Source: Mogibacterium sp. (GTDB lineage Bacteria > Bacillota > Clostridia > Peptostreptococcales > Anaerovoracaceae). From it: DNA of 60,021 nt. Location: positions 1 to 60,021 of the forward strand of contig JAFRKO010000022.1 in NCBI GenBank assembly GCA_017431685.1. Reading direction: 5' to 3'. The notes under the pieces were generated by a model. That model was not told the DNA's origin. It saw only the letters and a program-made list of their open reading frames with translations, and ran no database searches. Positions 47,928 through 58,046 of the stretch are shown one piece after another. Both the position numbers and the translations under genes were made by a program. Position 1 is the stretch's first letter, and every line of letters begins with the position of its first letter.

Positions 47928-50900
47928 TTATTCCTTTCCTGCGATCTCCCAGTCGATGGTAGTGTCGATCTCAGGTGCTTCGTAATTTTCATTATCGTAT
48001 GTCAGATACGCCTTGGCAGTATATTTACCCGGAGCGATAGCTCTGTTGTCTCTGTATCTGACAGCAATCTGCCAAGGAACACCCTTCAGCGTGATGTGCT
48101 TCTCGGTGCCGTCATACTCAAACGGCTCATCGTAATCCCAGTGAACTGCCGAAGTATCATACTTCGCTCTGAGTATCCTCCACTTGAGGTCAGGTATCTC
48201 TACGGCCTCGCAGTTGCGTGTATCATAGATCAGCCTTGCCCTTGCGGTATATGTACCGGCGTTGATCTTGCAGTTATCGGTGTATACTACCTCAATATCC
48301 TCAGGCACTCCCTCGAGCTTCACCTCTTTTGCCTTATCGTCGTATACGAAGACTGTATCATCGCCGTAGTTCCATTTAACTTCTGAGAGATCGAGTTCCT
48401 TCTTGGCGATCCTCCACCTGAGTTCAGGCACTGAAGGTGCTTCAAAGTTCTCTTTGTGTCTGTATCTGAGCTTTGCCTCAGCGGTATATCCGCCTGCCTC
48501 TATGCCCTTGTTGCCTACATATGCCTCCACTCTTACTCCTTCCGGAAGTCCGAGCAGTCTGACACTCTTCTCCTTGCCGTTATACACGAATTCATCTTCG
48601 TAATCCCAGCGCACTTCAGACATGTCGTAGCAGGCTTTGTCGATATGCCACCAGCATCCGCTTACAGGAGCCGGAGTCTCAAAATTGACAGGATCCTTTG
48701 CCTCAACAACGGCCATAGCTTCGTATTCTCCGGAGTTTACAGCTCTGTTATCAGTGTATGTCACTTTGACTGTATCAGGCAGACCGACGAGTTCGACGCT
48801 CTTCTCCTCACTGTCAAATGTGAACGGCCCCTCGTAATTCCAGTGAACACCGCTCATATCGATAGGTGCCTTCAGTATCTCCCACTTGAACGGCGGAAGC
48901 TCACGCTCCGTGTAGTTGCCCGGCTCCCTGTTCACGAGTTTTGCCGTTGTGTAGTAGACACCTGCATCGGTCGCTGTTTCGCCTTCGTAAACAACGTCGA
49001 AGCCCTCCGGGATTCCCGCGAGGTATGTCTCAGGCACTACTCTGCGCAGTTTCTCGAAGAAGCCGAGCGGACGTGTCTTTGTGGCTATGCAGACGCTCTT
49101 AGGCGTGCCGTCATACATATATGGACCGTCATAGACCCACTCTACTGCTTTGGTGTCAACATCTACGGCAGCCGGTGCGATGCTCCAGTTGCAGCCGCTG
49201 AATGTTGGCTTCTCATAGTTTTCAGCGTCGTATTCCAGAGTAACCGAGGCTTCATATGAGCCTGCATCAGTGGCTGTATTGCCGGAGTAGACCGGTGTGA
49301 TACCCTCAGGCAGTCCTGTGAGTTCGACAGTCTTAGGGCTTCCGTCGAATGTGAATCCGGTGACACCCTGCCATGCGGTCTTTGACAAGTCGTATGCAGC
49401 CTTGCTTATGCTCCATTCACAGCCGCCAATCTCTGGGGTGTGGTAGTTTTCGGCATCATATACCAGATCTGCTGATGCGCTGTAGCTGCCTACATTGACT
49501 CCTGTGTTGCCGTGATAAACCGCTGTGACTCCCTCAGGGAGACCTGCTATGTAGACAGATTTCTCGCTTCCGTCATATACAGACCTGAAGTCTCCTTCCC
49601 ATCTTGCGCCGGACATGTCATATGTAGATTTGATGATGCGCCAGTCGCAGTCTCTTATGGATGCGCCGTTGTAGTTTGCAGGGTCTTTCGGTGTAAGCTC
49701 TGCGTGTGCGGTATACTGACCGGCAGCAGCTGCCGTATTCCCTGTGTATGTAACATCAAGTGTTCCCGGAACTCCTTCTAGTTTCACAGTCCTCGTGTCA
49801 CCGTTATAGACGAATGAACGCGAGTAATCCCATCTTAATCTGCGGATATCCGGATCTGCCTTCTCAATAGCCCAGTCGCAGTACATTTCTTCAGGAATAT
49901 TGAAATCCGAAGTGTCGATGCCGAACCTTGCGACAGCTCTGTAGCTGCCGGCGTTTACGGCTGTGTTGCCTTCATAGCTGACACTGACACCTTCAGGAAT
50001 ACCTGTAAGCTGGATCCTCTTCGGCATTCCGTCAAATACGTAACTGCCGTCATAGTCCCATGCAGCTTCGCTCATATCGTAGTCAGCCTTGTTGATGCTC
50101 CAGTCGATCTTGATCGGTTCAGGAGCTCTGAAGTTGCTGTCAGATGTTGCAAAGCTGGCTGTAGCAACGTAATTGCCCGCTCTGTCGGCACTGTTCTCGT
50201 TGTACTCAGCTGTCACATTCTCAGGCAGGCCGCTCAGCTCGATGGTCTTTCTGCTGCCGTCATATGTGAAGCAGCCCGGCTCATAGCCCCAGCTGACAGC
50301 TGACATGTCGTAGTCAGCCTTTTCGATCTCCCAATCGCAGTCAGCCACAGACGGTGTATTGTAATTTGCAGGATCAGATACCGTGAGCAGCGCTTTGGCT
50401 GTGTATCTGCCGGCTTCCTTGCCTTCATTGCCCGTATAGTCCGCCTTGATGCCGTTCGGGAGCTGTTCGAGCATAACGCTCTGTTCTCTTCCGTTGAACA
50501 CTTTAGGGCTGCTGTAGTCCCACCTTACAACAGACATATCGTAATCAGCCTTCACTATCTGCCACTTGCAGCTTTCGATGAACGGCTGGTTGTAGTTATA
50601 TGAGTCATAAGGGATAAGTTCCGCAGCTGCCTCATATGAACCTGTATCAGCTGCTGCGTTGCCGGAGTATACGGCACGGACTCCGTCAGGAAGTCCTCTG
50701 AGCGACACCTCATGCATCCTTCCGTTGTAAACGAACTCACCTTCATAGTCCCAGGAAGCTCCCGACATATCGTATTCGGCTTTCCTGATCTCCCACTCGA
50801 GCTCCATCGGCTCAGGAGTGTTGAAATTGCGGCTGTCCGAAGCGGTAAACGTAACACTTGCCTTGTATGTTCCGGCATCGCGCGCTGTATTGCCTCTGTA

Positions 50901-53900
50901 TGAAGGCAGAGCGCCTTCAGGCAGTCCCTTCAGTACCACTCTGAACTCGCTGCCGTCATATGTGAAAGGCTTTTCGTAGTCCCAGCGGACGTGGCTCATG
51001 TCGTAGTTGCCCTTATCGATTCTCCATGTGAGATTCTCGAGTCTGGACTTTGTAAGGTTATCCGTGTCATCAGGGATAATCTCAGCAGCTGCTACATATG
51101 TGCCTGCCTGGTTTGCTTTTGCGTTATTGTATTTGACTGTTGTTCCTTCAGGAATGTTTCTGGCGGCGACAGTCTTCTCTTTGCCGTCATATACGAAAGC
51201 TTCATCATAGTCCCAGTTGACTGCTGAAATGTCTACCGGAGTCCTCTCGATTACCCAGTGGCATGTCGCAACTTCAGGCTTTCTGTAATTCCTCTCATCG
51301 TATTCGAAGCCGGCTCTTGCAGTGTATTCGCCTGCTTCAGAAGCCGAGCTGCCTTCGTACTCCGGTGTAAGCCCGTCAGGCAGTCCTGTCAGTCTGACAC
51401 TCTTGATTTCGCCATCATACGAGAATTCCCTGTTCTCCTGCCATCTGACTTCGCTCATGTCAAACGACGCTTTGTCGATGCGCCAGTCGAGCATCATGTC
51501 AGGAATATTGTCTTCATAATTATCAGGATCCATGACCCTGAACTTTGCAGTCGAAGTGTAAGAACCTGCATCAGTAGCGGATGCGTTGAAGTATTCGGCG
51601 AATACTCCGTCAGGGAGTCCCGCGACTTTAACGGTCTTAGAGATTCCGTCATAAATGAACGGCTCGCTGTAATCCCAGTAAGCTCCGCTCATATCAAATA
51701 CCGCCTTGTTAATGCTCCATGAAAATCCCTGTGGATCAGGCGCCCTGAAGTTATCGTCATCGACCGGCGAGAATACTGCTTTTGCGAAATATCTGCCGGC
51801 GCCAGTTGCAGTGTTGCCTGTGTAATCAACTGTAACAGCATCACCGAGGTCGTTTACTATGCTGACAGACTTCTCACTTCCGTCATAGATAAACGAAGAT
51901 GAATCCGTCCATGAGAGCAGCGGCAGTTTGTATTCCGCCTTGTCGATCGACCATGCGCATCCGTTTATCTCCGGAACTTCATAGTTGTTGGCATCAGTCG
52001 GTATCAGTACCGCGCTCGCAGCGTACATGCCCGCGCCGCTTGCTGTATTGCCTGTATATTCGACTTCGACGCCCTCAGGAACGTTTGCAAGGTAGATGCT
52101 GTGCTCATTGCCATCGTACACGAACGGCTCGGAATAATCCCAGCATACGTCTGAGATATCTATCTTCTTCTTGAGGATCCTCCAGCTGCAGTCCGCAGGG
52201 GACTCAACCTCGAGATTGTCTCCGTCAAATCTGAGATTAGCGTGAGCGTTATATATACCTGCATCATATGCCGAAGCATTCTCGTATTCGGCATAGACAC
52301 CCTCAGGCAGTCCTTCGAGTTCCACCTTTCTGACCTCACCGTCATAGGTGAAAGCTTCGGTGTAATTCCATCTGACACCTGACATATCAAGGCTCTTCTT
52401 GCCTATTCTCCAGTTGATGATCATATCATCAGGTGTATTGTAGTTGTGTGTGTCCGGATTGATGAAAGACGCGCGGGCTGTGTATTCGCCTGCTCTTCTT
52501 CCTTCGCATCCGCTGTATCTGACTTCGAGCTCTTCCGGGTACGACATGAGATGCACGCCATGTGTATCTCCGTCATATTCGAAGTCTGTCTGTCCGCTCC
52601 ATGCGGTGCGCGACATATCATAGGAAGCCTTTGCGATCTCCCATTCGTATTCCGCCTGACCCATGAAGCAGTAATTGCCTCCCAGAGAAGCTCTCGCAAG
52701 ATATTTGCCTGCCTGGGTTTCTTCTGCTCCGTCATATTCGACTTCCGCATCCGCAGGCAGATTCATGATGAACACTTTTTTCGGAGAGCCATCGTATACG
52801 AAATCCTCGCAGCCCGACCATTCGAGGTCTGAAGCGCTGATTCCGACCTTCTTAATCTCCCATACGCATGGAGCAACATCCTGCGGCTTCTCGTAATTAG
52901 CGCTGTCGTATTCAAATTTTGCTTTTGCTGTATAGACTCCGGCTTTAGAAGCAGCATTGTCTTCATAAATCGCCGTTACACCTTCAGGCAGCCCTTTCAG
53001 ACTTACCCCGTGATCCGCGCCGTCATATACGAACGGTCCATCGTAAACCCAGCTCACCTGCGACATATCGTAGGATCCCTTGCGGATAGTCCACTCATGC
53101 TCGCGAACGATGAGAGGTTCGTTGAAGTTGTCCTGATCGAAATCGAAACTTATTGTCGCAGTATATGTGCCTGCCTTGACACCTTCGTTTCCGATGTATT
53201 TCGGCACTACACCATCAGGCAGACCTTCAAGCCATACACGCTTTACGCTGCCATTGTATGTCATATCGTCTTCTTCTGCCCAGCGTACGCCTGACACATC
53301 TATGTTCGCTCTTCTGATATCCAGTTTTACGCTGTTTGAAACCGCTTCACCGATGCTGTTTGCGGCATGCAGTCTGAGGAGATATCCATTACATGATACA
53401 GGGAGGATCGCGTTATGATTTATAGCGCGCCATGTCCCCTCCTCACCGGTCTCGCTTATCTCGAGATAGCCCGTGACATCAGGATCATTGATCGAAATGA
53501 TCTCCGGAAGCTCAAACGGGATCGTCTCTCCGAATGAGAAGGCAGCCGGTTCCATGATCTCTCCGATCTTAGGAGCATGTCTCCACACCGCGTAAAGATC
53601 GATATCCCTGTCGACTGACTTTATCTCTGCTCCGGCAGGTATATCAGCGCCGGTACCGTCAGCCTGCGTGTTCCATGTTTTGAACGACCAGCTTTCATCC
53701 GGCCTTGTGAACATGAGCTGTTCTACCGGATATCCGCTGTTTGGTACGGTCTGTCTTTCTTCGACCAGTTCTTCGGCCTCACCATCAAAATTACTGTGGT
53801 AAAGCACTCTGAATCCTTCTACTCCAATCGGCTTTGCCTTTTTGTACTTGCCGCCGTATTCCTTAACGGCAAGTCTTCCGCAGTCCGTGCTGCCGTCACC

Positions 53901-54317
53901 TTCAGTATTGAATTCAGAACCCATCAGAATGTCGTCGAGCTTTGCGCACTGAGCAAACATTCTGCTCAGGTCTGAGCAGCGGCGCGTATCAAACGATGAT
54001 ATATCGAGCTCGCAGAGATTTGCGCATCCCTCGAACATCGAGTCCATACGTGTGACATTCGATGTGTCGAAGCCGCTCAGATCCGCCTTGACCATCTTCC
54101 TGCAGCCCTTGAACAGTCCTGCAAGCGATGCCCCGTCAGGAAAGCGCACATCGCGCGTTGCGACCACGGATCTGATTGCATCTTCAAAACCCTTCCACGG
54201 AGCACCTTCGTCTCCCAGGTCTGCAGCCAGTCCATTGTCTATAAGGAGGTTTCCATTCTCGTCCAAACCCCAGAGGCATTCGCCCCATTTGCCTACTTTT
54301 TTAAAGTTGCCTGCCAT
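47928..54317 (-). CDS. giant BspA/MBG-like tandem-repeat protein without signal peptide
   Basis: A 2129-residue protein starting MAGNFKKVGKWGECLWGLD. Residues about 1-130 look BspA/DUF285-like (ADLSGFDTSNVTRMDSMFEG, LDISSFDTRRCSDLSRMF). Residues about 160-250 contain a Listeria-Bacteroides-type repeat (KTWNTQADGTGADIPAGAE ... LYAVW), then an Ig-like stretch. From about residue 337 to the end there are 23 tandem repeats of about 78 residues, pattern YDMSxVxWDYxxxFVYDG, GLPEGV, YxGNxAxxAGxYxA, NYxxP, CxWxI. They resemble MBG/YDG-type beta repeats. No hydrophobic signal exists with this start or the in-frame ATG at 54380, and no sorting signal or membrane segment is present at the end. It is normally a surface architecture, but its export is unexplained. 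Confidence 0.85.
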   Translation of the reverse strand: MAGNFKKVGKWGECLWGLDENGNLLIDNGLAADLGDEGAPWKGFEDAIRSVVATRDVRFPDGASLAGLFKGCRKMVKADLSGFDTSNVTRMDSMFEGCANLCELDISSFDTRRCSDLSRMFAQCAKLDDILMGSEFNTEGDGSTDCGRLAVKEYGGKYKKAKPIGVEGFRVLYHSNFDGEAEELVEERQTVPNSGYPVEQLMFTRPDESWSFKTWNTQADGTGADIPAGAEIKSVDRDIDLYAVWRHAPKIGEIMEPAAFSFGETIPFELPEIISINDPDVTGYLEISETGEEGTWRAINHNAILPVSCNGYLLRLHAANSIGEAVSNSVKLDIRRANIDVSGVRWAEEDDMTYNGSVKRVWLEGLPDGVVPKYIGNEGVKAGTYTATISFDFDQDNFNEPLIVREHEWTIRKGSYDMSQVSWVYDGPFVYDGADHGVSLKGLPEGVTAIYEDNAASKAGVYTAKAKFEYDSANYEKPQDVAPCVWEIKKVGISASDLEWSGCEDFVYDGSPKKVFIMNLPADAEVEYDGAEETQAGKYLARASLGGNYCFMGQAEYEWEIAKASYDMSRTAWSGQTDFEYDGDTHGVHLMSYPEELEVRYSGCEGRRAGEYTARASFINPDTHNYNTPDDMIINWRIGKKSLDMSGVRWNYTEAFTYDGEVRKVELEGLPEGVYAEYENASAYDAGIYNAHANLRFDGDNLEVESPADCSWRILKKKIDISDVCWDYSEPFVYDGNEHSIYLANVPEGVEVEYTGNTASGAGMYAASAVLIPTDANNYEVPEINGCAWSIDKAEYKLPLLSWTDSSSFIYDGSEKSVSIVNDLGDAVTVDYTGNTATGAGRYFAKAVFSPVDDDNFRAPDPQGFSWSINKAVFDMSGAYWDYSEPFIYDGISKTVKVAGLPDGVFAEYFNASATDAGSYTSTAKFRVMDPDNYEDNIPDMMLDWRIDKASFDMSEVRWQENREFSYDGEIKSVRLTGLPDGLTPEYEGSSASEAGEYTARAGFEYDERNYRKPEVATCHWVIERTPVDISAVNWDYDEAFVYDGKEKTVAARNIPEGTTVKYNNAKANQAGTYVAAAEIIPDDTDNLTKSRLENLTWRIDKGNYDMSHVRWDYEKPFTYDGSEFRVVLKGLPEGALPSYRGNTARDAGTYKASVTFTASDSRNFNTPEPMELEWEIRKAEYDMSGASWDYEGEFVYNGRMHEVSLRGLPDGVRAVYSGNAAADTGSYEAAAELIPYDSYNYNQPFIESCKWQIVKADYDMSVVRWDYSSPKVFNGREQSVMLEQLPNGIKADYTGNEGKEAGRYTAKALLTVSDPANYNTPSVADCDWEIEKADYDMSAVSWGYEPGCFTYDGSRKTIELSGLPENVTAEYNENSADRAGNYVATASFATSDSNFRAPEPIKIDWSINKADYDMSEAAWDYDGSYVFDGMPKRIQLTGIPEGVSVSYEGNTAVNAGSYRAVARFGIDTSDFNIPEEMYCDWAIEKADPDIRRLRWDYSRSFVYNGDTRTVKLEGVPGTLDVTYTGNTAAAAGQYTAHAELTPKDPANYNGASIRDCDWRIIKSTYDMSGARWEGDFRSVYDGSEKSVYIAGLPEGVTAVYHGNTGVNVGSYSASADLVYDAENYHTPEIGGCEWSISKAAYDLSKTAWQGVTGFTFDGSPKTVELTGLPEGITPVYSGNTATDAGSYEASVTLEYDAENYEKPTFSGCNWSIAPAAVDVDTKAVEWVYDGPYMYDGTPKSVCIATKTRPLGFFEKLRRVVPETYLAGIPEGFDVVYEGETATDAGVYYTTAKLVNREPGNYTERELPPFKWEILKAPIDMSGVHWNYEGPFTFDSEEKSVELVGLPDTVKVTYTDNRAVNSGEYEAMAVVEAKDPVNFETPAPVSGCWWHIDKACYDMSEVRWDYEDEFVYNGKEKSVRLLGLPEGVRVEAYVGNKGIEAGGYTAEAKLRYRHKENFEAPSVPELRWRIAKKELDLSEVKWNYGDDTVFVYDDKAKEVKLEGVPEDIEVVYTDNCKINAGTYTARARLIYDTRNCEAVEIPDLKWRILRAKYDTSAVHWDYDEPFEYDGTEKHITLKGVPWQIAVRYRDNRAIAPGKYTAKAYLTYDNENYEAPEIDTTIDWEIAGKE
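47941..53306 (-). repeat. 23 tandem protein-level repeats of about 78 residues
   Basis: Twenty-three diverged copies, each about 230 bases, can be counted by the recurring Trp after a DMS/DIS-like start. Copy 19 has an insertion of about 20 residues (near 49020-49085), and copies 3 and 4 are the most divergent. Nucleotide sequences of the copies differ, so this is an old, diversified array and not a recent amplification. Confidence 0.88.
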
Positions 54318-54372
54318 TATTCTGTCCCTTTTTTTATCGTTAGTGTTATCTTTCCAGTGCTGCTTTGAGCAC

Positions 54373-54395
54373 ATAATCATACATAGTAGATTATA
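54373..54395 (-). promoter_or_regulatory. -10 box and overlapping inverted repeat ahead of the giant gene
   Basis: The minus strand has a perfect TATAAT (54390-54395) about 70 bases before the ATG; the -35 region is poor. An inverted repeat ATAATC (54373-54378) / GATTAT (54389-54394) overlaps the -10, so a repressor or activator could bind there. Confidence 0.45.
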
Positions 54396-54476: not shown

Positions 54477-55175
54477 CTAGCGGTCCGCCTCAAGCAGGCT
54501 CCTGAACATTTCATCAGCAGGATCTATGACAGGCAGATCTGTCAGTCCAGCCAGCTCTTCCATGAAATACGGGAAGTGCGTGCAGCCCAGAACGATAGCT
54601 TCTGCGCCGCATGATTCCATGTACTTTACCATATGAGAAAGACCACAATGATCAATTACCCCGGCCGGTACCATTCCGTCCTCTATCGCACGGACAATCG
54701 CCATATTCCCGGTCCCGATCATATAGATATCAGGATTGGACGCCATCAGAGCTTCTTCAATCGCATAAGCGGAGAGATTGTTTGCTGCCATTACGCCGAG
54801 ACGGCTGTATTCACAGCCAAGTCTCCTGTAAACCTGAAGCGGCGTATAGACTCGGATGTCCACGTCTTTTTCCAGCGATTTCATGACCGCATATGTATCG
54901 AAATCAAATGAGCCCGACAGCGAATTGCAGTAGATGAAAAAGTCCCTCACACCTGCCTCTATCTCCGGATTGAAAATGTTATCCATTACAGCGCGCTTTT
55001 CATCATCATCCGAATACTGGAACTTGATCTGCGCGTCGCAGTCCACCGACACAGGGTCAGAAAGGGGCAGCAAACACTGCCCCTCTGTTTCAGAGTTCTT
55101 CTTATTTATATATTCGACACCCATTGCGGTATCGACCGGCGTGCCCGCCAGAACTGCTACTTTTCTTTCCTTCAT
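54477..55175 (-). CDS. aspartate/glutamate racemase family protein
   Basis: A 232-residue protein of the Asp/Glu racemase superfamily. Both catalytic Cys are visible, in FIYCNSLSG (about residue 98) and VLGCTHFP (about residue 198), as expected for two-base racemisation without cofactor. The substrate is not known. It starts three bases after metQ (TAAAGCATG), so it is translated from the met transporter transcript. A role in using D-amino acids taken up by MetNIQ, or in making D-Glu or D-Asp, is possible but inferred. Confidence 0.85.
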   Translation of the reverse strand: MKERKVAVLAGTPVDTAMGVEYINKKNSETEGQCLLPLSDPVSVDCDAQIKFQYSDDDEKRAVMDNIFNPEIEAGVRDFFIYCNSLSGSFDFDTYAVMKSLEKDVDIRVYTPLQVYRRLGCEYSRLGVMAANNLSAYAIEEALMASNPDIYMIGTGNMAIVRAIEDGMVPAGVIDHCGLSHMVKYMESCGAEAIVLGCTHFPYFMEELAGLTDLPVIDPADEMFRSLLEADR

Positions 55176-55178
55176 GCT

Positions 55179-56003
55179 TTAGAACTTAGGCTGAACAGCT
55201 CCGTTGTACTTGTCGAGAATGAAGTCCTTAACAGCATCTGTCTGGATAGCCTTTACGAGAGCCTGTGTCTTCTCACTGCTCTCGTTGCCTGCATTTACTA
55301 CGATGACATTTACATATGTCTCAGCAGCCTCAGAGTCTGCAGACTCGTATGCTACTGCATCGTCTGTTGTGAGGCCTGCACCGAGCGCGTAGTTTGCATT
55401 GATAACGCCGAGTGCCAGATCAGGGAGTGAAGCCGGGATTGTTGCAGCCTCGAGCTCAACGATCTCGATGTTCTTAGGATTGTCTACGATATCGAGCTTT
55501 GTAGCTTCGAGTCCAACACCGTCCTTCAGTGTGATCACACCGTTTGCTGCGAGCAGCTGGAGAGCTCTTGCTTCATTTGTTACATCGTTAGGAACGCCGA
55601 TCTTGTCGCCGTCAGCGAGTGCGTCGAAGCTGTCTTTCTGGCCCTTGTATGCTCCCATTGCCTCATAGTGTACGTTTCCTACTGCTACCAGGTCTGTGCC
55701 ATTCTCTGCATTGTACTGGTCGAGATACGGAACGTGCTGGAAGTAGTTGGCATCAACGTCGCCGTCTGTTGTAGCTACGTTAGGCTGTACATAGTCATCA
55801 AACTCTACAACTTCGAGAGTCCATCCGTCTGCCGCAAGTGCTTCAGAAATCGAATTGAGGATCTCTGCATGAGGTGTAGGAGAAGCTGCTACCTTTATAG
55901 TCTTGTCTGCGGAATCACCGCCGCCTCCGCCGCATGCTGTGAGGATGCCGAGTACAAGCACGAGTACTGCTGCAATAATGCTGAATCTTTTGATGTTCTT
56001 CAT
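55179..56003 (-). CDS. metQ: D/L-methionine-binding lipoprotein MetQ
   Basis: A 274-residue NlpA-family lipoprotein. The signal peptide ends at LTAC (about residue 24) and is followed by five Gly. PTPHAEILNSI, DYVQPNVA and DANYFQHVPYLDQYNAENG are characteristic of MetQ. It is the receptor for the MetN-MetI importer encoded just upstream. The ribosome site is GGGACAG, a form shared with metN and the giant repeat gene. Confidence 0.95.
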   Translation of the reverse strand: MKNIKRFSIIAAVLVLVLGILTACGGGGGDSADKTIKVAASPTPHAEILNSISEALAADGWTLEVVEFDDYVQPNVATTDGDVDANYFQHVPYLDQYNAENGTDLVAVGNVHYEAMGAYKGQKDSFDALADGDKIGVPNDVTNEARALQLLAANGVITLKDGVGLEATKLDIVDNPKNIEIVELEAATIPASLPDLALGVINANYALGAGLTTDDAVAYESADSEAAETYVNVIVVNAGNESSEKTQALVKAIQTDAVKDFILDKYNGAVQPKF

Positions 56004-56080: not shown

Positions 56081-56743
56081 CTAATTGATGCGGTTGTCGT
56101 ATTTGTTGACCACCTTTATTCCTATCTCCTGGAAGATCTGTACCATTATTACCAGGACCACTATCGTTATCCACATTATCGACGGCTGGAATCTGTAAAG
56201 TCCGTATCTGATGGCGATTTCTCCGAGTCCTCCGGCTCCGACGATACCCGCCATTGCGGTGTAGCCGAGTATGTTGATAGTGGCTACCGCTGCTCCGTTC
56301 AGCAGCGACGGCCTTGCCTCAAGCAGCATCACCTTGCGGATTATCTGCATGTTGCTGGCTCCCATCGCCTGTGCTGCTTCGATGACTCCCGGATCGACTT
56401 CCAGAAGCGACTGTTCCACAAGCCTTGCTACGAACGGTGCTGCCGCTACTATCAGGGCTGCTGTCGCCGCTTCCTTGCCTATGCCCGTTCCGATCAGCTT
56501 ACGTATGTAAGGCATCAGGGCTATCATCAGGATAAGGAACGGCACCGATCTCAGGATGTTGACTATGAAACCTACCACCTTGTTGTAGATGCCCAGCGGT
56601 CTTATGCCTCCCGGCGCTGTTACTATGAGTGAAACTCCTATAGGCAGGCCGATAAGGTACGATACCACCGTGCAGATGATGATCATGTACAGGGAATCAA
56701 GTGTCCCGTGTCCGAGTAAGCTAAGCAATTCATGAATATCCAT
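56081..56743 (-). CDS. metI: methionine ABC transporter permease MetI
   Basis: A 220-residue permease with five hydrophobic segments and the EAA loop VDPGVIEAAQAMGASNMQII (about residues 118-137). MetI-type segments such as LGYTAMAGIVGAGGLGEIAI are present. Its ATG overlaps the metN stop (TAATG), so the two are coupled. It forms a homodimeric channel with two MetN. Confidence 0.95.
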   Translation of the reverse strand: MDIHELLSLLGHGTLDSLYMIIICTVVSYLIGLPIGVSLIVTAPGGIRPLGIYNKVVGFIVNILRSVPFLILMIALMPYIRKLIGTGIGKEAATAALIVAAAPFVARLVEQSLLEVDPGVIEAAQAMGASNMQIIRKVMLLEARPSLLNGAAVATINILGYTAMAGIVGAGGLGEIAIRYGLYRFQPSIMWITIVVLVIMVQIFQEIGIKVVNKYDNRIN

Positions 56744-57786
56744 TATGCCTTCACCTCCTCTTCGATCTCATCCTCATCGATTTCAATGAATTCCACACCC
56801 TTCGCCGTGAGGTACTCCTTCTGTTTCTCAGCAGTCTCCTTGTCGGCCGCCAGGCATATCACCATCTGTCCTTTCTGAGCTCCGCCGAGCACGTCCAGGT
56901 TAGCATACAGGAAGTTCACAGGTGCCTTGAGCTCCATTATCATGTTGGCGATTATCGGTTCGCCCGCGTTCGCCTCGTCGAATACCAGTCTGACCCGGTT
57001 CTTCGTTGAGGTTTTCGTCAGCGGTTTTTCATGCGCCTGACCGTCAGGGAAGAAGAGCTTACGAGCCGCCTTGGTCTTAGGTTTTTTGAAGATCTCCGAC
57101 ACCTCTCCGCGCTCCACGATCTCACCGTTTTCAATGACCGCCACTTTGTTGCAGAGCTGCTTTATTACATCCATCTCGTGGGTTATGACTACGAGCGTTA
57201 TACCGCGCTCCTCGTTGATCTTACGAAGCAGGCTCAGAATAGAGCGTGTAGTCTTAGGGTCAAGAGCTGATGTAGCTTCATCGCAGAGGATGACTTCCGG
57301 ATCGGATGCCAGTGCTCTTGCTATCGCTACTCTCTGTTTCTGACCGCCCGAGAGCTGTGACGGGAATGAGTGCGCTCTGTCCTCGAGGTCTACGACTTTG
57401 AGGAGTTCCTGAGCTTTCTCAAGAGCTTCTGCCTTAGGCACTCCCGCGATCTCCAGCGGAAAAAGTATGTTGCCTATGGCGTCTCTCTGCATCAGCAGGT
57501 TGAACTGCTGGAATATCATTGATATCTTGCGCCTGTGGAGGTTGAGGTCTTTGTTTCTCAATCCGGTCAGTACACTGCCGTTGAAGACGACCTTTCCTTC
57601 TGTAGGCTGTTCGAGGAGGTTTATCGTTCTTACCAGGGTCGATTTGCCTGCGCCTGAGAGTCCGATTATACCGTATGAATCCCCTCTCTCAATGTCCAGG
57701 TCGATGTCCTTAAGTGCAACCACCTTGCCGCCCTTGGTATCGAACTCTTTCGTTACCCCCTGCAGTCTTATTATGTGTTCTGCCAT
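56743..57786 (-). CDS. metN: methionine ABC transporter ATPase MetN
   Basis: A 347-residue ATPase with Walker A GLSGAGKST, signature LSGGQKQR and Walker B VILCDEATSAL. Residues about 265-345 form the NIL/ACT-like regulatory domain that senses methionine and inhibits transport from inside. The first gene of metN-metI-metQ-racemase; it lies 35 bases after a terminator hairpin and about 120 bases after a Met-rich leader ORF. Confidence 0.96.
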   Translation of the reverse strand: MAEHIIRLQGVTKEFDTKGGKVVALKDIDLDIERGDSYGIIGLSGAGKSTLVRTINLLEQPTEGKVVFNGSVLTGLRNKDLNLHRRKISMIFQQFNLLMQRDAIGNILFPLEIAGVPKAEALEKAQELLKVVDLEDRAHSFPSQLSGGQKQRVAIARALASDPEVILCDEATSALDPKTTRSILSLLRKINEERGITLVVITHEMDVIKQLCNKVAVIENGEIVERGEVSEIFKKPKTKAARKLFFPDGQAHEKPLTKTSTKNRVRLVFDEANAGEPIIANMIMELKAPVNFLYANLDVLGGAQKGQMVICLAADKETAEKQKEYLTAKGVEFIEIDEDEIEEEVKA

Positions 57787-57821
57787 TCTGTCCCTTCCTG
57801 AAAAATATCTGAAAATAATAT

Positions 57822-57846
57822 GGGGCAGGTCTTAACGACCTGCCCC
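57822..57846 (-). terminator. leader terminator before metN
   Basis: GGGGCAGGTC (57822-57831) pairs perfectly with GACCTGCCCC (57837-57846) around a 5-base loop; the minus strand then reads ATATTATTTTC. It lies between the Met-rich leader ORF and metN, so it can only act as an attenuator of metNIQ. Confidence 0.85.
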
Positions 57847-57885
57847 GGCATCTCACACATGAGAAATATACACAGTTTTCGGATT

Positions 57886-57896
57886 TCGTTACGACC
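57886..57896 (-). promoter_or_regulatory. candidate antiterminator segment in the metN leader
   Basis: Minus-strand GGTCGTAACGA begins ten bases after the leader ORF stop. It is complementary to TCGTTAAGACC at 57828-57838 with a single mismatch in 11. That target covers the terminator loop and the loop-proximal part of both arms, so the two pairings compete. Confidence 0.6.
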
Positions 57897-57906
57897 TTAT
57901 CCTATG

Positions 57907-57972
57907 CTATTCATCGGCTCTGCACATGCACATGCCCATCATTCCCATTTCCATCATCATGTTTCTTGTCAT
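57907..57972 (-). CDS. methionine-rich leader peptide of metNIQ
   Basis: A 21-residue ORF, MTRNMMMEMGMMGMCMCRAD plus a final Glu. Ten residues are Met (nine after the initiator) and two are Cys. AGGAG is nine bases upstream of the ATG, and a near-consensus promoter lies about 45 bases upstream of the start. A strong terminator and a candidate antiterminator lie between it and metN. This is the arrangement of ribosome-mediated attenuation: stalling at Met codons when charged tRNA-Met is scarce would favour expression of the Met importer. A small Met/Cys metal-binding peptide is an alternative reading. No SAM riboswitch or T-box was seen. Confidence 0.72.
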   Translation of the reverse strand: MTRNMMMEMGMMGMCMCRADE

Positions 57973-58017
57973 GTGAATGTGCTCCTTTCATAGAATAAGT
58001 GAATAAGCTCAGTAGCT

Positions 58018-58046
58018 AATATAGCAACAATTAATGGTGTTGTCAA
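58018..58046 (-). promoter_or_regulatory. promoter of the met transport operon
   Basis: Minus strand TTGACA (58041-58046, exact consensus), a 17-base spacer and TATATT (58018-58023, five of six). The predicted leader RNA is about 220 bases. Confidence 0.88.

Follow-up and report, generated by a model that had tools for sequence, protein, structure and literature searches.

How is methionine uptake controlled in a gut bacterium whose metNIQ operon is preceded, on the minus strand, by a short open reading frame (ORF) full of methionine codons and a transcription terminator? The question is raised by the window, i.e. the whole stretch of 60,021 nucleotides analyzed here. The sequence-only reading of this DNA had proposed a methionine leader-peptide attenuator. 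The element is real and conserved, and an attenuator based on a Met/Cys leader peptide is by far its best supported reading. Very probably, it is a ribosome-mediated transcription attenuator linking metNIQ expression to the charging of tRNA-Met, and probably also to that of tRNA-Cys.

Anatomy of the metNIQ leader

The features of the leader and the downstream genes are compiled in Table 1. The promoter (TTGACA-17-TATATT), the AGGAG, now placed within AAAGGAG (57988-57982), the 21-codon ORF, the 10-bp terminator and metN were all present on the minus strand at the places assigned to them before. Likewise, the 11-base segment behind the ORF is complementary to the terminator top with one mismatch (GGTCGTAACGA, 57896-57886, against TCGTTAAGACC, 57838-57828; 10 of 11 positions pair). 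The previously counted ten Met codons are reduced to nine, comprising the start codon and eight internal ones. In the 60-kb window, 737 ORFs of 10-60 aa begin with ATG, and none of the others has as many internal Met as the leader ORF with its eight. The runner-up ORFs, 44-60 aa long, have six, and the maximum in 20 dinucleotide-shuffled versions of the window was 4-6. The Met richness of the leader ORF is not a matter of chance.

Table 1. Features of the leader region and of the metNIQ genes in the window
Feature	Position	Strand	Basis
-35 hexamer TTGACA	58041..58046	(-)	sequence; similar hexamer in many, not all, genus relatives
-10 hexamer TATATT, 17-nt spacer to -35	58018..58023	(-)	sequence
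Shine-Dalgarno AAAGGAG of leader ORF	57982..57988	(-)	kept in nearly all genus leaders; lost in L016
Leader ORF MTRNMMMEMGMMGMCMCRADE, 21 codons, TAG stop, 2 Cys	57907..57972	(-)	translation
P1 5' strand CATAG, adjoining the leader stop codon 3'	57902..57906	(-)	alignment
Candidate antiterminator 5' strand GGTCGTAACGA	57886..57896	(-)	complementarity and alignment
P1 3' strand CTGTG	57871..57875	(-)	alignment
Small hairpin TCTCA-TGTG-TGAGA, between the antiterminator strands	57851..57864	(-)	computed fold
Intrinsic terminator hairpin, 10 bp, 8 G-C, -22.0 kcal/mol	57822..57846	(-)	sequence and fold
Terminator loop and upper arms TCGTTAAGACC, complementary to 57886-57896	57828..57838	(-)	complementarity
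U-rich tail ATATTATTTT, directly after the terminator stem	57812..57821	(-)	sequence
metN, ABC ATPase with NIL domain, ATG at 57786	56743..57786	(-)	PF00005, PF09383; TIGR02314 best match, below curated cut-off
metI, permease	56081..56743	(-)	PF00528; NF008049 below cut-off
metQ, lipoprotein	55179..56003	(-)	PF03180; NF008285 below cut-off

Just 5' of the Shine-Dalgarno sequence, the heptamer TTCTATG (57989-57995) is kept in most genus leaders; it is complementary, with one G-U pair, to CATAGGA after the leader stop, and a long-range pairing around the ORF is possible. At the other end of the operon, an Asp/Glu racemase-like gene (54477-55175, minus strand) starts 3 nt past the metQ end and possibly belongs to the same operon. 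On the same strand, 47928-54380 encodes a 2150-aa protein of many similar repeats that matches DUF285 and an MBG domain weakly and may be a large surface protein.

Conservation and distribution of Met-rich leaders

A search with the leader DNA gave matches in 45 of the 47 genomes of the genus. The next frame after the leader encodes MetN in 44 genomes (72-100% identity), and in G027 the contig ends past the leader. For the genus leaders measured, the distance to metN was 60-185 nt. In G016 and G026, neither the leader nor MetN (at E <= 1e-75) was matched; in fragmented bins, such an absence is not firm because the search had no positive control and the leader-bearing G027 likewise gave no match. 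G016 is listed as 95% complete, and the identical MetN query matched MetN in the remaining genus genomes searched. A comparison with relatives had been proposed as a check, and within the genus it bore the element out: the ORF frame, the Met codons, the terminator and the place before metN are all kept.

The peptide core M-x-M-G-M-M-G-M-C-M-C is nearly fixed in the genus down to the wobble bases, with GGC in 45/45, GGA in 44/45 and the two TGC codons in 42/45 and 44/45 leaders. Such a frozen core could reflect constraint at the RNA level or at the peptide level, or recent divergence. Individual genus leaders miss one part each, namely the ORF start (L016), the antiterminator segment (L026, L034) or the 3' arm of the terminator (L037), which may be either real losses or assembly errors. 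In three further loci (L033, L044, L057), part of the leader core occurs a second time, in degenerate form, just 5' of metN, suggesting tandem duplication and leader decay.

For a survey beyond the genus, metN loci were chosen without regard to any leader or Met motif. MetN was matched in 50 of 109 family genomes (E <= 1e-75) and in 51 of 198 order genomes (E <= 1e-85), and 85 loci were taken, leaving out G097 and G152, which lie near contig starts, and the window's own locus. The upstream region of L124 was too short, and the 84 regions scored included three repeats, giving 81 distinct ones. An ORF with at least five internal Met was detected upstream of metN in 19 of the 84 regions and on the opposite strand in none (0/84); upstream regions of metG, used as control, had none either (0/50). 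By eye, L133 (5 Met in 58 aa) was discounted and L147 and L290 (4 Met) were added, so that 20 of the 81 distinct regions were regarded as leader-like: 4 from the genus, 14 from the rest of the family (10 genera) and 2 (L289, L290; out of 29 loci) from another family of the order. No leader-like ORF was seen in 34 of the 52 family metN regions. The earlier suggestion that the Cys codons add cysteine sensing is supported by the presence of Cys in all 14 leader-like ORFs of the other family genera, but not by L289 and L290, which contain none.

Met/Cys-rich leaders of otherwise different sequence recur in other genera; between genera, hardly anything but the Met and Cys codons is common to them, and their spacing differs. 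This bears on the possibility of a nascent-peptide arrest sensor, in which MxMGMMGMCMC in the exit tunnel would stall the ribosome on a ligand (Met, Cys or SAM). Such a sensor would account for the near-frozen non-Met residues and wobble bases in the genus. However, the residues other than Met and Cys and the spacing differ in other genera, as expected if the codons matter, and the wobble conservation could also stem from RNA pairing, e.g. of AUGGGAA in the ORF with UUCUCAU. We consider arrest by the peptide quite improbable.

Among the 29 metN loci of the order outside the family, Rfam models assigned a SAM-I riboswitch to 23 and a T-box to 2 (L293, L318); 2 have the Met-rich leaders, and for L299 and L309 neither Rfam nor ORF inspection revealed SAM-I, T-box or leader upstream of metN. 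Within the family, SAM-I (RF00162) or T-box (RF00230) elements were found at 0 of the 49 distinct metN loci scanned with Rfam, a set without L103, L286 and L287 of the genus and without L124; the window had no Rfam match at all, including these two models. A SAM riboswitch is present in 44 of the 47 genus genomes, and in the three genomes checked (G000, G009, G024) it lies upstream of metK (named by NCBIfam for G000). Second SAM riboswitch matches (L281 in G032, L282 in G043) precede ORFs not recognized as Met genes. In G000, two T-box matches below the Rfam cut-off are located before thrS and a TrpB-like gene.

The RNA behind the ORF might itself bind a ligand, as a riboswitch or T-box-like element of a kind not described before, with the ORF incidental, but this is very unlikely. 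The high conservation of the segment CATAGGATAAGGTCRTAACGA and of the terminator top in the genus would fit such an element, but the Rfam results just given lend it nothing, and in most other genera the post-ORF sequence differs while the Met/Cys-rich ORF recurs.

Leader-like ORFs also precede other Met genes: metG for methionyl-tRNA synthetase in genus g39 (L089, L322, L323), genes of metQ-type lipoproteins (L211, L221 by Pfam; L090, L091 by eye), another metN (L208), and metY for O-acetylhomoserine sulfhydrylase (L218, L232 by NCBIfam; L238 by the same translation start), the metY-linked loci coming from records titled Oscillospiraceae or Clostridia. L323 was found through metG; the remaining loci from outside the survey came from searches with the motif MMGMxM, which are uninformative on motif-less leaders. 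A scan of genome contigs for the pattern MMGMCM gave at least 118 stretches; among the matches listed, 17 were taken as leaders, 10 of them genus-type, and the others listed were judged by eye to be long frames, Met-rich small proteins, frames not followed by a Met gene, or chance matches. We rejected metG as a second target used generally in the family: only 2 of 50 metG regions (taken from 104 genomes with a metG match) had a leader, both from g39, to which G226 of the same genus is added.

It is extremely unlikely that the ORF is an ordinary gene for a small Met/Cys-rich, e.g. metal-binding, protein that ends in a terminator of its own, with metNIQ expressed independently of it. The ORF does have its own promoter, Shine-Dalgarno sequence and terminator, and Met/Cys-rich peptides are able to bind metals, but its sequence apart from Met and Cys is not kept between genera, it tracks metN within the genus at 60-185 nt, and similar ORFs stand before other Met genes.

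Terminator, candidate antiterminator and proposed mechanism

Compensatory changes in terminator and antiterminator had been named as support to look for. The terminator covaries: 10 alignment cells are changed on both sides, and 0 of 500 shuffles scored as high. Its outer pairs vary with compensation, while the upper stem and the loop hardly change. On the 5' side and top, CAGGTCGTTA (window 57833-57842) is nearly invariant; since the A of its CAGG is kept in 45/45 hairpins even where unpaired (10 hairpins, one of these truncated), CAGGTCGTTA may have a second role beyond antiterminator pairing.

For the candidate antiterminator, compensatory signal was not obtained: its covariation in the genus alignment was not above that of shuffles, and a swap test of co-evolution with the terminator gave no difference (own -13.06, swapped -13.13 kcal/mol). 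The pairing itself is conserved. The segment GGTCRTAACGA starts 10 nt past the leader stop and is complementary to the terminator top. Compared with shuffles, z was -3 or lower in 34 of the 44 genus leaders tested (L026, which has no such segment, was left out) and above -3 in 10, including L034, L037, the deep-branching L050-L054 and also L030, the last with a mis-picked motif. The antiterminator helices are paired at 88.7% and 96.9%, and together with P1 95.7% of the cells are paired versus 21-41% when slid. P1 is paired in 42/42 aligned sequences with one-sided changes only. RNAalifold, applied to 42 leaders, returned P1 and an ORF-to-hairpin pairing, AUGGGAA:UUCUCAU; neither is proof because they are nearly invariant or changed on one side.

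Folds were computed for three sequences (L009, L020, L055) under the assumption that the front edge of the ribosome lies 11 nt beyond the A-site codon. When the ribosome was placed at the last core Met, the best fold was the antiterminator, until the 3' arm of the terminator was complete (-22.6 kcal/mol for L009, -22.4 for L020). A ribosome placed at the stop took away two outer pairs and left the antiterminator weaker (-17.4 for L009, -17.2 for L020); in L055 it was absent. Once the full terminator was present, the terminator won in all states modeled for the three sequences, and read-through would therefore need kinetic capture. Of the proposed pairing of 57886-57896 with 57828-57838 upon stalling, the conserved complementarity stands; the terminator was the stronger structure in every ribosome state modeled. 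The strands lie roughly as classical attenuation requires, with a putative antiterminator that a ribosome at the stop is predicted to mask only partly.

A strict terminator finder gave a match after 22 of the 26 leaders outside the genus leader set; the other four are not counted as losses because the finder also misses the window's own terminator. For leaders from other genera, the strongest structure competing with the terminator was mostly no better than shuffles, with the exceptions L090/L091/L211 (z -2.6 to -3.2), L208 (-2.8) and L111 (-2.3).

In the mechanism that we infer, translation of the leader would report on charged elongator tRNA-Met, and probably on tRNA-Cys too. When Met (and Cys) is plentiful, the ribosome would run through the 21 codons to the stop, where, with the front edge assumed above, it would cover CATAG and reach the first base of GGTCRTAACGA; the terminator would be favored and metNIQ be off. 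When charged tRNA-Met (or tRNA-Cys) is scarce, the ribosome would stall in the Met/Cys run, at least 12-15 nt before the stop, leaving GGTCRTAACGA free to pair with the emerging terminator loop and upper arms, and RNA polymerase would read through. Shortage of Met also lowers initiator tRNA, which could itself cut leader translation. Met starvation also hits initiation, and such an attenuator would have to work while initiation fails, a puzzle that can be tested.

A broader proposal is unlikely: that Met/Cys leaders govern Met uptake, methionyl-tRNA synthetase and homocysteine synthesis in several clostridial lineages, have displaced SAM riboswitches at metN, and that the MGMMGMCMC peptide of the genus is part of a sensor integrating Met and Cys.

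Relation to known regulatory systems

If the attenuator reading is true, Met is a further amino acid sensed through leader-peptide attenuation, here in a group for which control by SAM riboswitches was expected. The sensor of metNIQ would then differ between families (SAM riboswitch or T-box versus tRNA charging), metK keeping its SAM riboswitch, so that within one genome SAM synthesis would respond to SAM and uptake to charged tRNA. The leader also suggests what short ORFs of uncultured gut bacteria may do.

The his, trp, leu and ilv operons of Proteobacteria are controlled by leader-peptide transcription attenuators. They share with the metNIQ leader a short ORF rich in the amino acid of the operon, a Shine-Dalgarno sequence and a terminator before the first gene, and their competing upstream pairing has a candidate counterpart here. 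In contrast, the codons here are those of Met (and Cys), and the candidate competing strand, located just past the stop, would pair with the loop and upper arms of the terminator. The SAM-I riboswitch (RF00162) of metN controls the same operon, premature termination being its usual outcome, but it senses SAM; a scan of 49 family metN loci gave no match to it, though the three genus genomes checked have retained it at metK.

In Firmicutes, leader peptides are described for His before a hisS paralogue and hisZ (PMC2965389), with His attenuators in the Bacillus cereus group, Eubacteriales and Erysipelotrichales (PMC9413887), and for Ile/Leu before ilv-leu of S. aureus (PMC5794164). They resemble the metNIQ leader in mechanism class and phylum, and in that a leader peptide stands in for the T-boxes or other control of relatives; the amino acids are others, and the available parts of these three papers describe no Met case. 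The Cys leader peptides of actinobacterial cys operons also have sulfur amino-acid codons in an upstream ORF, but, according to the part of the source at hand, these are Cys only and come with no conserved terminator, and no conserved RNA structure is given for Met operons there (PMC1262725). A comparative study of Met regulation across Proteobacteria (PMC4239095) uses neither 'leader peptide' nor 'attenuat' in its main text. A search of the open-access full-text literature gave no description of a Met leader-peptide attenuator; an earlier description is possible in subscription papers, which were outside its scope. The mechanism class is known; the specificity for Met and the presence of such leaders where sister families have SAM riboswitches would be new.
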